Source of the DNA: a virus
Virus record (IMG/VR): IMGVR_UViG_3300024353_000029
Span: 1 to 20,142 of that record
Reading direction: 5' to 3' (one strand)
Length of the DNA stretch: 20,142 nt
In this document: piece after piece, positions 12,007-16,023 of the stretch
How the letters are laid out: every line of letters starts with the position of its first letter
How positions within the stretch are numbered: the stretch's first letter is position 1
The notes under the pieces: generated by a model
Database searches by the model: none
What the model was told of the DNA's origin: nothing
What the model saw: the letters and a program-made list of their open reading frames with translations, nothing else
Made by a program: the position numbers and the translations under genes

Positions 12007-13410
12007 TCACCATATTTTCGCCTCACTCTGGGGCCTTAAAGCCGCGAGTGCATAGATGACTCCTTCAGCCTTATCAGGAGATCTCCCTAGCTTCTCTTTG
12101 ATCTTGCTTTTCGCCATGATTTCATATTGACCGGCTGAATTTACCTTGTATTTTATGGCCATGAGCTGTGTTGTGAGCTCACGATCAAGCGGCAGATCTA
12201 GCTCCGGAAGTAGCTCGTGCATTCCCCAGTGGATCTCCGCTCGCAGATTCTTGAACTTCGCCGGCTCCCGGGCCTTTCCCGATCCATGGATCTCGAGGAT
12301 CTTGATTCGCAACCTGTATTCTGCTTTTACGAGCTCCTCTCTCTTCTCCTTGCTGACCGCCCTCAGAATCATCTCCGTGTAAAGCTCTTTCTTCTCCCGG
12401 CGTTGCTCTTTCAGCCTATCCACTACACCGGCGCCCAGGCCATCGGCGTCTACCTTGATTTTGATCTGATCAAGGTCGGCTCCCCACTGCGGGATGATCT
12501 TCTCCTGACAGCAGCGCCAGATCTCGCCGGTCGTGCGCATGGTATCATGGCCCTGCGCCTGGTTATGTATCCGGACCCGGAGGCCTTCTCTTAGCACTAT
12601 GACCGTCTCATCGTCCCCGCTCCTGGCCACGTCGCAACCAATCTCGACGGGCAGAGAAGCCTTCAGATGTCGCTTAACCGCCTTTTGTATCTCAAGATAA
12701 GCGTAGACATTATCAGGCTCGCCCACCGCCTCCCAATCGCCTTCAAGTAGGGCCTTTATCAGCTGCGGCGTAAGGATATCTTTCATCATGGGGATATAGC
12801 TGGCCGGCAAATTAGCGATATTATCCGAAGGCAGCGACGGGATGAAAATGTGATCCTTCATGTTCTTCTCTATGAAGCGCTCCTTTATCCAGCCTATGTT
12901 CGGATTGCAGGAGAGGAGGAAGAAATATCGGATCCCTGGAATATTCAGCCGGAAGCGTGTGGCCAACATGATGAATTCCTTTTCAGTGAATTGTTCGGCC
13001 TGGTCCAGCGCTATCCAGCCGTATTCTCCGGACATAAACTTCTCCCAGTCATCCGGCCGCTCGCCGACTCCGCCATAGCGGATCCTCGAGCCGTTTATGT
13101 AAGTGATCATTTTCTCCGACCGGTTCCAGTCCCTAACAAGCCGCAGATCCAGGAACTTCTCCAGCTGCGGGAGGACCGTATCCCGGAACGATGGCCAGGT
13201 CTTTCTCATCAGCAGGCCGAAGTTGCCCGAGTAGTCAAGATTGAGCTGGTTCCCCTCATTGATTAGCGCAGCCGTCTTTCCTCCGCCCATGGCGCCGCCG
13301 AAGAGCTTATAGGTCTCCGGAGCTGCATGGAAGAGCAGCTGTTTCTTATTGCGTCGGGGATCGTAGCGCTGGCTCAGATCCACGGTTTCATATTCGACTG
13401 CGCTATCCAT
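12007..13410 (-). CDS. terL: Terminase large subunit
   Basis: The 467-residue packaging ATPase/nuclease has a Walker A at GGAMGGGKTAAL (38-49), a Walker B at GWIALDQAEQF (131-141) with Asp136 and Glu139, and a coupling motif SCNP (167-170). Walker B reads D-Q-A-E where many terminases have D-E; this variant recurs in related terminases, with Glu139 the probable catalytic residue. The C-terminal RNase H-like nuclease shows GCDVARSGDDET (Asp260), KVDADGLGAGVVDRL (Asp321) and GRSPDKAEGVIYAL (Asp446). All three metal-binding acids are therefore present. The start overlaps the small subunit gene by 8 bp and is preceded by AAGGAA. Confidence 0.96.
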   Translation of the reverse strand: MDSAVEYETVDLSQRYDPRRNKKQLLFHAAPETYKLFGGAMGGGKTAALINEGNQLNLDYSGNFGLLMRKTWPSFRDTVLPQLEKFLDLRLVRDWNRSEKMITYINGSRIRYGGVGERPDDWEKFMSGEYGWIALDQAEQFTEKEFIMLATRFRLNIPGIRYFFLLSCNPNIGWIKERFIEKNMKDHIFIPSLPSDNIANLPASYIPMMKDILTPQLIKALLEGDWEAVGEPDNVYAYLEIQKAVKRHLKASLPVEIGCDVARSGDDETVIVLREGLRVRIHNQAQGHDTMRTTGEIWRCCQEKIIPQWGADLDQIKIKVDADGLGAGVVDRLKEQRREKKELYTEMILRAVSKEKREELVKAEYRLRIKILEIHGSGKAREPAKFKNLRAEIHWGMHELLPELDLPLDRELTTQLMAIKYKVNSAGQYEIMAKSKIKEKLGRSPDKAEGVIYALAALRPQSEAKIW

Positions 13411-13963
13411 TCTTTTTCCTTTTTTTCTTCGGCCTCGGAACGGCCGTAATGACTTTTAAGTTTAGGTTCCCGGATACATCGAAATTATGCCGATCCTTCC
13501 AAAGTCCCGGGCGTCTATTTTTCAAAAAGAAGATACAGGCCGTCGTGTCCGGAACCACCATCTTCGTGATCTTCTTCACGACGATTGGCTTTGCTTTTTT
13601 GTCTTTGGCGTCCTTCGCCCGGAACTCCGCGTGGACCTCTTCATAGCTGAATCCCTTGGCTCTTTTTAAAAGTGCATTTTCGACTTCCACGTCGACCGGT
13701 TTCTTACCTTCTTTTAAGGCCTCAGCAAATTCAGGATATGTTCGCAGGTATAAATAAAACGATTCTTGAGATATCCCCAGCTTCTTGCAGATCTCCTTGT
13801 CAATCATTCCCCGCCGTGCATAGTCCTGGGCCAGTAGCGGGAAGTCCTCGTGATATTTCGTCTTCCGGCCAGCGTTTAACTTTTTTATTTTAATTTTCTT
13901 CATCGGGCGCACAGGTGTTTTCGCCCTTTTGACACTAGATTTTGTTGTGTCTTTCTTAGCCAT
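13403..13963 (-). CDS. terS: Terminase small subunit
   Basis: The 186-residue protein has a very basic N-terminus (residues 1-33), a helix-turn-helix region around GMIDKEICKKLGISQESFYL (about 52-71) followed by YPEFAEALKEGKK, and the C-terminal motif VVPDTTACIFFLKNRRPGLW, which is highly typical of small terminases that hand DNA to the large subunit. The end is again basic (RPKKKRKKNG). It would recognise the packaging site, unknown here. ATG at 13963 is preceded by a GTG in frame (13966); neither has a good ribosome site, the nearest GGAT being weak. This gene starts the packaging block; the divergent plus-strand gene lies 80 bp away. Confidence 0.9.
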   Translation of the reverse strand: MAKKDTTKSSVKRAKTPVRPMKKIKIKKLNAGRKTKYHEDFPLLAQDYARRGMIDKEICKKLGISQESFYLYLRTYPEFAEALKEGKKPVDVEVENALLKRAKGFSYEEVHAEFRAKDAKDKKAKPIVVKKITKMVVPDTTACIFFLKNRRPGLWKDRHNFDVSGNLNLKVITAVPRPKKKRKKNG

Positions 13964-13995
13964 CACATATCCGTAAATTATTTTAAATCAACCTC

Positions 13996-14025
13996 TTGCA
14001 AACCTTTTAAAACGGCATATATTAT
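13996..14025 (+). promoter_or_regulatory. Candidate sigma70-type promoter for plus-strand gene pair
   Basis: TTGCAA (13996-14001), an 18-bp spacer and TATTAT (14020-14025) match the -35 and -10 consensus at 4 and 5 of 6 positions, 18 bp before the plus-strand ATG and upstream of AGAGGA. The region between the divergent starts is AT-rich. It is the only clearly promoter-like segment in the window; no equally good minus-strand promoter for the terminase was found here. Confidence 0.5.
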
Positions 14026-14043: not shown

Positions 14044-14424
14044 ATGAGAAAAAAATACAACGAAACGCAAGCCCGGATGCTTCTTTATCAGACTCTTAGC
14101 GAGAAAGGCCGCTTTCACGGTATCCCTAAAATGGCCCCTTCGACCTGGCGCCAAGTTTTGGAGGTTACCAGCGGCCTTGGTATCAGACCCTTTAAAGATC
14201 CTTTTAATGGCTGGCTGGAGCTGAAAGAGTTTAAGTCTCATGTCCCCACCTTGTTAAGAAATTATGGATATGGATATGCACCGGATCTAGTCGCTCAACT
14301 CTGCGGGTTTGAAACTCACCAAGAGCTTTACGACGCGCTCGATCTTCCGATGGTTGCAGAAAAGTCCGAAGCCGATTATTATCAAGACCTGGCTGATACC
14401 CATGAAGAAGGAGAATCCTTATAA
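14044..14424 (+). CDS. Unknown 126-residue protein on opposite strand
   Basis: I do not recognise this protein. It has a helical N-terminus (MRKKYNETQARMLLYQTLSE), a middle with WRQVLEVTSGLGIRPFKDPF and GWLELKEFKSHVPTLLRNY, and an acidic helical C-terminus ending EADYYQDLADTHEEGESL. There is one Cys and no membrane segment. It has a fair ribosome site (AGAGGA, 8 nt upstream) and a candidate promoter. Its stop is 1 bp before the ATG of the DUF523 gene, so the two form a coupled plus-strand pair, opposite to everything else here. Such isolated, self-promoted gene pairs in phages are typical of moron genes. Its link with DUF523 suggests a joint task, unproven. Confidence 0.75.
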   Translation: MRKKYNETQARMLLYQTLSEKGRFHGIPKMAPSTWRQVLEVTSGLGIRPFKDPFNGWLELKEFKSHVPTLLRNYGYGYAPDLVAQLCGFETHQELYDALDLPMVAEKSEADYYQDLADTHEEGESL

Positions 14425-14425
14425 A

Positions 14426-14860
14426 ATGAGTGATTCTATTTTTGTTAGCTCCTGCCTTTTGAGTAAGAAGTGCCTTTATCACGGCTTTCTGGCGACGTTC
14501 GCCAAGGAGCGGATCGAGGAGCTGCGAAAGGATGGCTACAAGATCCTGGACGCGTGCCCGGAAATGCTGGGCGGCCTTCCTTGCCCTCGCCCCCCGGCCC
14601 GTTTTCGCAACGGGATGATCATGGCCGGCAGCCAGGACGTTACCGCTAATTTTATGCGGGGCGCCGATCTCGCCATGGGGATCATCGATAAGGAGCGGCC
14701 CCGGCTTGCCCTCCTTTTGAAAGGTTCGCCGGCGTGCGATCCGGAATCCGGGATCTTCGGAAAACGAGTCGCTTATTTTATCCCTGCGATCGACTGTAAC
14801 CGGAAGAACGACTGGCTTCAACGGCTTGCTCTCCTCTTAGGCCGGGCTCCCTTGTTATAG
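14426..14860 (+). CDS. DUF523/TudS-type iron-sulfur protein
   Basis: The 144-residue protein is a clear DUF523 (PF04463) member: VSSCLLSKKCLYHG (7-20), ILDACPEMLGGLPCPRPPAR (40-59), GSQDVTANFMRGAD (68-81) and LLLKGSPACDPESGIFG (96-112). Characterised TudS-type members bind a [4Fe-4S] cluster by three cysteines and remove sulfur from 2-thiouracil. The matching residues here are Cys10, Cys44 and Cys104, with Glu46 and Ser101 also in place, so cluster binding looks intact. Two further cysteines (16, 53) are present. The usual S-C-G-x-x-x-I-Y-D-G loop reads A-C-D-P-E-S-G-I-F-G, slightly shortened. It follows the 126-residue gene by 1 bp, probably coupled. Its last 43 bp overlap the convergent ParB-CysH gene. 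The actual substrate in this phage is unknown. Confidence 0.87.
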   Translation: MSDSIFVSSCLLSKKCLYHGFLATFAKERIEELRKDGYKILDACPEMLGGLPCPRPPARFRNGMIMAGSQDVTANFMRGADLAMGIIDKERPRLALLLKGSPACDPESGIFGKRVAYFIPAIDCNRKNDWLQRLALLLGRAPLL

Positions 14861-16023
14861 GGATCCCAGTATCTATGAAACCTCTTTATATTTGAGTCTG
14901 TCTTGTGCGCCGGGTATATCAGCCGGCTCGTAAGGATCCTCATCTCTTCCCAGACCATCGGATAATTCTCTTTTAAGGCCTCATATTGCTCAGGGCGCTG
15001 AAACGGGCAGCACCAGCAGGCCGTTCGCTGGAATCCCTTGGCATACCCGGGCCAGATCAGGCGTTTTATTTTTTTCAGCATGGTTTCATAAGATGTTTGA
15101 GATGTCTCATAGAAAGGAGCGAAAACGGAGGCCCCGTTTTTCAGCTTCAGGAACGCAGTCCGGACACTCCTTCCCACTTTTTGATCAGAGCGGCCGCCGC
15201 GGATCTTGAGTGTCTTCGGCTGGGCTTCTGGATCGTAGCTGTCCAGGATCTCATTTATAAATTTATGCTGGCAATCCCGGAAAAGGGGATCTGGCCAGCG
15301 GCCTCTTTTGGTATAATATTCCACCAGGTTCGCGGGGCTGTTCATCCGGACTAAATCAACTTTCAGATCCATGCAGAGCCGGTTTATGTAGCTGGAGAGA
15401 TCCGGGAGCTCGCCGCCGGTTTCTACGAAAAGAACGGTAAAGGGCTTCTTCAGTTCCTTGCAAATTTTCCGGGTCCACAAAAGGGCCAGGAGCGAGTCTT
15501 TCCCACCGCTAAATTCGACATGGACATGCTCGAATTTTTTGATCAGATCCTTCGCGTCCTTTGGAATCCGGGCGATCGCGCCAGGATCCTCGAGCTTTTC
15601 TTCCCGATCCGGCCCGAAGCGCTCCATGACTTCGGTCATGGTGATAGCTGCACCCAGGTCTATTTTATAATCCTCGAGATTTATATCTTCGATATGGGGA
15701 TAAGTGAGCTCCGCGAGTTTCAGATCGTCATACTCGCCGGCCCGGTCATTATCTGAAAGGGCGAATTTTATCTTCGTGGCTTCGTCTTTTGCCTTGACGA
15801 TGGAGATATCGACTTCCCGGTGCTCGAGCTCCTGCAGGGCCCGCAGCCGCATATTGCCGCCCAGGGTTATATATCGGCCGTTTTCCCGGACACAGAGAAG
15901 AGGCTTATAGACGCCGAGCTCCAGGATCTGTTTTTTAAGGCGCTCATAGTCCTTCGTTTTTATATTCCGGGGATTCTTAGCCCAGGCCTCGACTTCGGAT
16001 ATCGGGACTTTTTTTATATTCAT
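14818..16023 (-). CDS. ParB-like domain fused to PAPS-reductase-type PP-loop domain (IbrB-IbrA-like fusion)
   Basis: The 401-residue protein has two recognisable parts. Residues 1-135 are a ParB N-terminal-type domain: LKKQILELGVYKPLLCV (29-45), then RYITLGGNMRLRALQEL (50-66), with the phage-type G-G-N-x-R motif at 55-59, and a LSDNDRAGEYDDLKLAEL helix (89-106). Residues 160-400 are a CysH/PAPS-reductase-type ATP pyrophosphatase: FSGGKDSLLALLW (171-183, PP-loop), VLFVETGGELPDLSSYI (197-213), FRDCQHKFINEI (248-259), KIRGGRSDQK (273-282), and a cysteine cluster ACWCCPFQRP (Cys336, 338, 339), with Cys251 as a possible fourth ligand. E. coli IbrB and IbrA are separate proteins of these two kinds, reported as co-activators of prophage genes. 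ATGA overlap with the upstream one-TM gene. Confidence 0.88.
   Translation of the reverse strand: MNIKKVPISEVEAWAKNPRNIKTKDYERLKKQILELGVYKPLLCVRENGRYITLGGNMRLRALQELEHREVDISIVKAKDEATKIKFALSDNDRAGEYDDLKLAELTYPHIEDINLEDYKIDLGAAITMTEVMERFGPDREEKLEDPGAIARIPKDAKDLIKKFEHVHVEFSGGKDSLLALLWTRKICKELKKPFTVLFVETGGELPDLSSYINRLCMDLKVDLVRMNSPANLVEYYTKRGRWPDPLFRDCQHKFINEILDSYDPEAQPKTLKIRGGRSDQKVGRSVRTAFLKLKNGASVFAPFYETSQTSYETMLKKIKRLIWPGYAKGFQRTACWCCPFQRPEQYEALKENYPMVWEEMRILTSRLIYPAHKTDSNIKRFHRYWDPYNKGARPKRRASR

Follow-up and report, generated by a model that had tools for sequence, protein, structure and literature searches.

What might a virus do with a single protein that joins a ParB-type domain to an ATP pyrophosphatase of the CysH type? 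The question is raised by a gene at positions 14818-16023 of the window analysed here, the whole of a 20,142-nucleotide stretch of viral DNA (IMG/VR record IMGVR_UViG_3300024353_000029, positions 1 to 20,142). The original prediction, drawn from the sequence by itself, recognized the fusion, compared it with the IbrB and IbrA proteins of Escherichia coli and with the DNA phosphorothioation enzyme DndC, and placed it between the lysis and packaging genes, where it indeed lies. The two strongest functional clues were absent from that prediction, namely a TudS-like partner gene and an exchange with DNA methyltransferases. We give a probability of about 0.5 to the reading that the fusion gene encodes the writer of a module of two genes, which would thio-modify viral DNA and take the place of a methyltransferase.

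The fusion protein

The predicted open reading frame is real, lies on the minus strand and encodes 401 residues (Table 1). Its product unites a ParB N-terminal domain and a CysH-type PP-loop domain in a single chain, joined in-frame as had been proposed: Pfam places ParB_N at residues 2-91 (E = 5e-7) and PAPS_reduct at residues 167-339 (E = 6e-8), each match passing its curated cut-off, and the second match keeps the C-terminal half within the PP-loop group. Modelling of the whole chain with AlphaFold2 (28-row alignment) gave two confident domains (mean pLDDT 88) and a linker with pLDDT values of 51-58 across most of residues 121-150, falling below 50 at residues 125-129. In Foldseek searches, the N-terminal half of this model matched ParB and Noc structures, and the C-terminal half those of CysH, APS reductase, NcsA and TtuA (including 6vpu and 2goy). 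Pfam, the PDB search and Foldseek agree on an N-terminal ParB domain of the CTPase type, which may bind CTP. The central helix-turn-helix by which ParB partition proteins bind parS was found neither by Pfam nor in the AlphaFold2 model, the linker and PP-loop domain coming straight after ParB_N. Rfam and tRNA scans of the whole window returned no matches.

The GGNMR and SGGKDS motifs occupy the residues assigned to them in the original prediction. The cysteines at 336, 338 and 339 are also where it put them, but they do not form the conserved cluster that it described: position 338 is variable, and invariance is limited to C251, C336 and C339. Together with the PP-loop motif (SGGxDS), these three residues are kept in all 28 homologues, divergent as they are, and P244, G276, P303, W324, GY326-327, G330, R333 and P340 are likewise invariant. 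In the ParB motif, G56 and R59 are nearly so.

Table 1. Features of the locus (positions in the window) and the homologous gene of an isolated archaeal virus
Feature	Position	Strand	Details and basis
ParB-PP-loop fusion gene	14818-16023	-	ATG start, 401 aa
ParB N-terminal (ParB/Srx) domain, residues 1-120	15664..16023	-	Pfam, PDB ParB matches, fold
GGNMR phosphate-binding-type motif, residues 55-59	15847-15861	-	
Disordered linker, residues 121-152	15568..15663	-	pLDDT; identity drop
CysH-type PP-loop domain, residues 153-401 and stop	14818..15567	-	PAPS_reduct, SspD models, fold
SGGKDS, residues 172-177	15493-15510	-	
Cys251 codon, proposed cluster ligand	15271..15273	-	Invariant in 28-homologue alignment
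Cys336-x-x-Cys339 motif (RTACWCCP), proposed cluster ligands	15007..15018	-	Cysteines invariant in 28-homologue alignment
TudS/DUF523-like [4Fe-4S] protein gene, module subtype	14426..14860	+	144 aa; PF04463, E 7e-19
Gene directly ahead of tudS, 126-aa product of no known family	14044..14424	+	phmmer
Sigma-70-like promoter (TTGCAA-16-TATATT, or -18-TATTAT)	13996..14025	+	Weak evidence
Terminase small subunit, next late gene	13403..13966	-	phrog_309, E 2e-46
ParB-PP-loop fusion gp05, Methanoculleus virus L4768	L006:1242-2486 (NC_074642.1)		

A TudS-like partner

The fusion gene converges on a tudS gene, and the 3' ends of the two overlap by 43 nt. The model of the TudS-like protein is confident (mean pLDDT 96) and comes closest, among PDB structures, to TudS 6z96 (TMq 0.83). 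It shares the fold of the thiouracil desulfidase TudS (DUF523, PDB 6Z92-6Z96) and, among the functional residues described for that enzyme (Cys10/43/104, Glu45, Ser101 and Ser103; PMC10611767), keeps the three cluster cysteines, the catalytic glutamate and the first serine, the second serine being replaced by alanine. The third cluster cysteine is lost only in L027. Unlike canonical TudS, the copies linked to the PP-loop enzyme form a distinct subtype with mostly CR[YW]H (a few carry other letters) instead of CRYD/N and SPSCD-type ends instead of SPSCG; furthermore, an active-site loop of about 14 residues (IYDGtFsG) is deleted in every linked copy. Unlinked TudS proteins, including L091 and eight unlinked copies from phage records, have CRYD/N and the loop. 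With the loop missing, the active site may be more open and so better able to take a substrate that is large or bound to a protein. The C-terminal tail of the window TudS recurs in L039, L037 and L049, and the idea that it results from a frameshift was accordingly rejected.

The protein encoded directly upstream of tudS has no Pfam or PHROG match, and phmmer recovers relatives from L039 and L049, which are close kin, and from nowhere else. The promoter-like sequence ahead of these two genes, one of 4 such sites found against 2.1 expected, could drive 14044-14860 separately.

Linkage and co-divergence of the two genes

Scans of IMG/VR and an HMM survey of viral contigs yielded 34 clusters of the PP-loop protein, and the recurrence of the fusion architecture in about 34 sequence clusters argues that it did not arise by chance. 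According to the linkage scans, which used short peptide patterns, were not exhaustive and, for one of the two TudS patterns, favoured the module subtype, TudS lies within 3 kb of the ParB-PP-loop gene in 32 of 34 clusters (22 of the 24 found by the fusion scan alone, the other 10 having been found via TudS). The exceptions are L041, a 9-kb fragment, and L042, where no TudS occurs in 61.8 kb. In the reverse direction, 32 of 38 viral TudS clusters adjoin a PP-loop protein; four of the remaining six are at contig ends, the contig of L052 carries the fusion at another place, and L091 is a canonical TudS. TudS is otherwise very rare in phages, occurring in 15 of 50,697 phage records. The TudS copies in eight further records labelled as phage are canonical and unlinked, at least one of them in a contig with chromosomal-looking neighbours. 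Two controls were negative, TudS being found at 0 of 21 ParB-methyltransferase loci devoid of the PP-loop fusion and at 0 of 8 other PAPS-reductase loci. Most clusters have tudS on the strand opposite to the fusion gene (convergent) and some have it co-directional. At L080:4807-6402 the module is unfused (or frameshifted), with ParB, PP-loop and TudS as three consecutive open reading frames in the same orientation.

In GTDB species genomes, hits of the fusion scan were confined to metagenome-assembled genomes of Akkermansia (L092-L094). With the window protein alone as query, scans of viral and genome contigs gave no matches, and an alignment-based search is needed. The module is common to one archaeal virus and to others that are probably viruses of bacteria. 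We found no paper describing the ParB-PP-loop and TudS pair in the open-access literature, in which absence is not proof; the known viral TudS-DUF1722 protein, RudS (PMC11417400), has a different architecture.

Evolutionary distances, compared over 25 pairs, point to the same partnership. TudS distances correlate with those of the PP-loop half (r = 0.41, P = 2e-4; r = 0.39 after removing ParB) and less with those of the ParB half (r = 0.23), while the PP-loop and ParB halves reach only r = 0.18 despite their common chain. Because the TudS-PP-loop correlation exceeds both ParB correlations, it seems to be with TudS that the PP-loop half forms the functional unit, and ParB looks like an exchangeable part.

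The two genes might also have separate roles, the PP-loop protein as thiolating enzyme and TudS as an eraser or counter-defence factor that strips sulfur from bases or from host thio-marks and so protects phage functions. Desulfuration is the known activity of TudS, and tudS, which in the window may have a promoter of its own, is mostly encoded on the strand opposite to the fusion. Tight co-divergence and near-constant pairing fit a partner at least equally well, and we know of no thio-base DNA mark in hosts; we therefore hold an eraser to be quite improbable.

A ParB domain exchanged with DNA methyltransferases

Over residues 1-125, the ParB half of the window protein shares about 78% identity with the ParB domains of L007, L008 and L009, after which similarity drops to chance level and these three proteins continue with N6_N4_Mtase as their catalytic half. 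Compared with L039, the nearest PP-loop relative, identity over residues 1-125 is about 65% and similarity runs on through the PP-loop half. The breakpoint of the swap, at about residue 125-130, falls inside the disordered linker. Gene order is kept around it: L008 reads g16364-like gene, ParB-methyltransferase, TerS, TerL and portal, and the window reads g16364, g16020, ParB-PP-loop, tudS with 14044 (opposite strand), TerS, TerL and portal. In both L007 and L008, the TerS homologue directly follows the ParB-methyltransferase gene, and in many loci the module is found just before terminase or portal genes. The fusion thus resembles the phage ParB-DNA methyltransferases in its ParB half and in its slot before the terminase, and differs from them in having a PP-loop catalytic half, with TudS.

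The exchange seems to have recurred. In a tree of 69 ParB halves, methyltransferase and PP-loop partners must have replaced one another at least 6 times, and its starred branches alone force 8 changes when the PP-loop label is set against all others. The two kinds of fusion are not simple alternatives, since they occur together in L025 and L040.

Several other arrangements of these domains were observed. Paralogues sharing the ParB domain, either ParB-PP-loop beside ParB-methyltransferase or beside ParB alone, adjoin each other within a genome at L040:1287-4422, L025:5998-8845, L022:3-2435 and L014:3560-7254, and those of L040 and L022 are closest sisters in the ParB tree. In one viral contig (L114:4001-6013), the fusion partner of the same ParB domain is a PLP-dependent enzyme (PALP, E = 8e-17), possibly another DNA-modifying catalytic half. 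The ParB domain is joined to a C5-cytosine methylase-like half at L123:3959-5077 and to another methyltransferase type at L120:3959-5191. At L103:4001-6273 and L108:2787-5026, and in L115, L117 and L118, a ParB-methyltransferase gene is directly followed or overlapped by a separate PAPS_reductase gene with no TudS, a second kind of pairing between methyltransferase and PP-loop enzyme. Gut phages of the Heliusvirales (L003:3121-3897, L004:3061-3759) have a stand-alone PAPS-reductase between TerL and portal, with no TudS nearby.

Comparison with known PP-loop systems

The nearest characterised PP-loop enzymes appear, judging by sequence, to be SspD and BrxP of DNA phosphorothioation. PADLOC models matched the PP-loop halves of 21 family members as follows: SspD all 21 (to 4e-20), BrxP 18, and two DndC models 4 and 3, so that the kinship foreseen in the original prediction stands for SspD and BrxP and hardly extends to DndC itself. 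NCBIfam gave the uncharacterised families PRK08557/08576/13795, far below their cut-offs, and the PDB profile search gave weak matches to GMP synthase, QueC, NcsA, LarE, TtuA and APS reductase. The fusion shares the CysH-type domain with SspD, BrxP and DndC, from all of which it differs in carrying ParB and in having a TudS-like partner.

These likenesses lend themselves to a backbone branch of the module reading, a minimal SspD/DndC-like system with ParB in place of the ATPase or DNA-binding subunits, TudS as a sulfur relay only and a backbone phosphorothioate instead of a thio-base as product. DndC is described as holding a [4Fe-4S] centre by three cysteines (PMC10853773), and the three invariant cysteines of the fusion could do the same; DndB of the Dnd systems is classed in the ParB superfamily (PMC10853773). 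Against this branch, the additional cysteine dyad described for DndC has no counterpart, no further cysteine being invariant among the 28 homologues. In 13 viral records, some of them incomplete, DndD did not rise above the cut-off (one weak short match) and no virus-encoded cysteine desulfurase was found, although the host could supply the latter. A homologue of a pyrimidine desulfidase, moreover, has no known role in phosphorothioation. We regard the backbone branch as rather unlikely.

Like the tRNA thiolases TtuA and NcsA, which are among its fold matches, the fusion combines a PP-loop with a three-cysteine site. TtuA has paired zinc fingers at both ends; the cysteine content of the window chain leaves no room for these, the order of the cysteines differs, and the tRNA enzymes have no ParB domain. 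The PP-loop protein and TudS might nonetheless thiolate or de-thiolate tRNA or the nucleotide pool during infection, with ParB binding a nucleotide. TudS acts on 4-thio-UMP (PMC10611767), and its fused form RudS, including one phage copy, on s4U of tRNA (PMC11417400). The ParB half, however, is one that DNA methyltransferases also carry and that no RNA enzyme was seen to carry, the locus adjoins the terminase gene and not tRNA or nucleotide genes, and the linked TudS proteins are devoid of the canonical loop; such a role seems improbable.

A transcriptional co-activator of phage genes, after the manner of IbrB-IbrA, would explain the pair of domain superfamilies, ParB-like and PAPS-reductase-like, which is the same in E. 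coli YbdM/YbdN, used here as stand-ins. These are, however, separate proteins, and YbdN is annotated with DUF3440, for which Pfam found no match in the fusion protein at E <= 0.01. The YbdN alignment covers 59 aa of the PP-loop only, similarity beyond the PP-loop being undetectable, and the ParB half gave no meaningful alignment with YbdM, so that the direct kinship suggested by the original prediction was rejected. With no helix-turn-helix and with TudS left unexplained, we consider co-activation very improbable. A CysH/APS reductase function was also rejected. The PP-loop fold is shared (Foldseek 6vpu, 2goy), but those enzymes have a C-terminal redox cysteine of the ECGLH type, no cysteine past C339 is conserved in the 28 homologues, and the linkage is unlike that of sulfate assimilation.

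A proposed thio-modification module for viral DNA

Since the fusion is nearly always accompanied by TudS, and since its slot holds a DNA methyltransferase in related phages, the pair probably adds sulfur to viral DNA. BREX type 4 makes the same exchange, its PAPS-reductase standing in for a methyltransferase in DNA phosphorothioation (PMC12839542). In the proposed module, the ParB-type domain would be a swappable address that keeps the enzyme on viral DNA and probably depends on an NTP to do so. The PP-loop domain would spend ATP to adenylate an acceptor oxygen on DNA, and sulfide carried on [4Fe-4S] clusters, at the C251/C336/C339 site and in the three-cysteine TudS-like partner, would then replace this oxygen, with a host cysteine desulfurase as the likely source of sulfur. 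Phage DNA thiolated in this way could escape host restriction, as would the methylated DNA of the ParB-methyltransferase relatives that occupy the same slot.

For the acceptor, we slightly favour a base carbonyl (thio-pyrimidine type) over phosphate, because the only known TudS chemistry is the exchange of sulfur and oxygen on pyrimidines. That viruses thiolate their own DNA bases, to a thio-pyrimidine or similar, by means of a PP-loop enzyme that ParB addresses and of a [4Fe-4S] partner resembling TudS is a tentative and somewhat doubtful extension of the module reading. Several observations weigh against the module itself: a TudS mostly on the opposite strand does not look like part of a strict enzyme-donor operon, the known TudS enzymes remove sulfur and do not add it, L041 and L042 have the fusion with no TudS, and the target of ParB-type domains may be nucleotides and not DNA.

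Implications and an isolated virus

Among the 50,697 phage records, a full-length homologue occurs in one virus only, Methanoculleus virus L4768/Blf4, which is entered twice; the homologue is its gp05. Blf4 is an isolated lytic virus of archaea (PMC8540584). In Pfam, gp05 matches PAPS_reduct and, below threshold, ParB_N and QueC; its gene is followed by a TudS-like gene (gp06) and then TerL. It is annotated as 'DNA modification methylase', yet has no Pfam methylase domain, and this is likely a misannotation through the ParB half. A PADLOC scan of 51 Blf4 proteins gave mainly methyltransferase models among the matches listed (25 of 63 families). The candidate is therefore directly testable in an isolated virus.

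The natural sulfur mark known so far in DNA is on the phosphate backbone, and an enzyme that thiolates DNA bases was not described in the open-access papers that we searched. If the proposal is true, sulfur chemistry would join the known viral ways of disguising DNA, the TudS family, known so far for sulfur removal only, would gain a role in sulfur transfer, and the ParB address domain would be one that viruses trade between methylation and sulfur chemistry.
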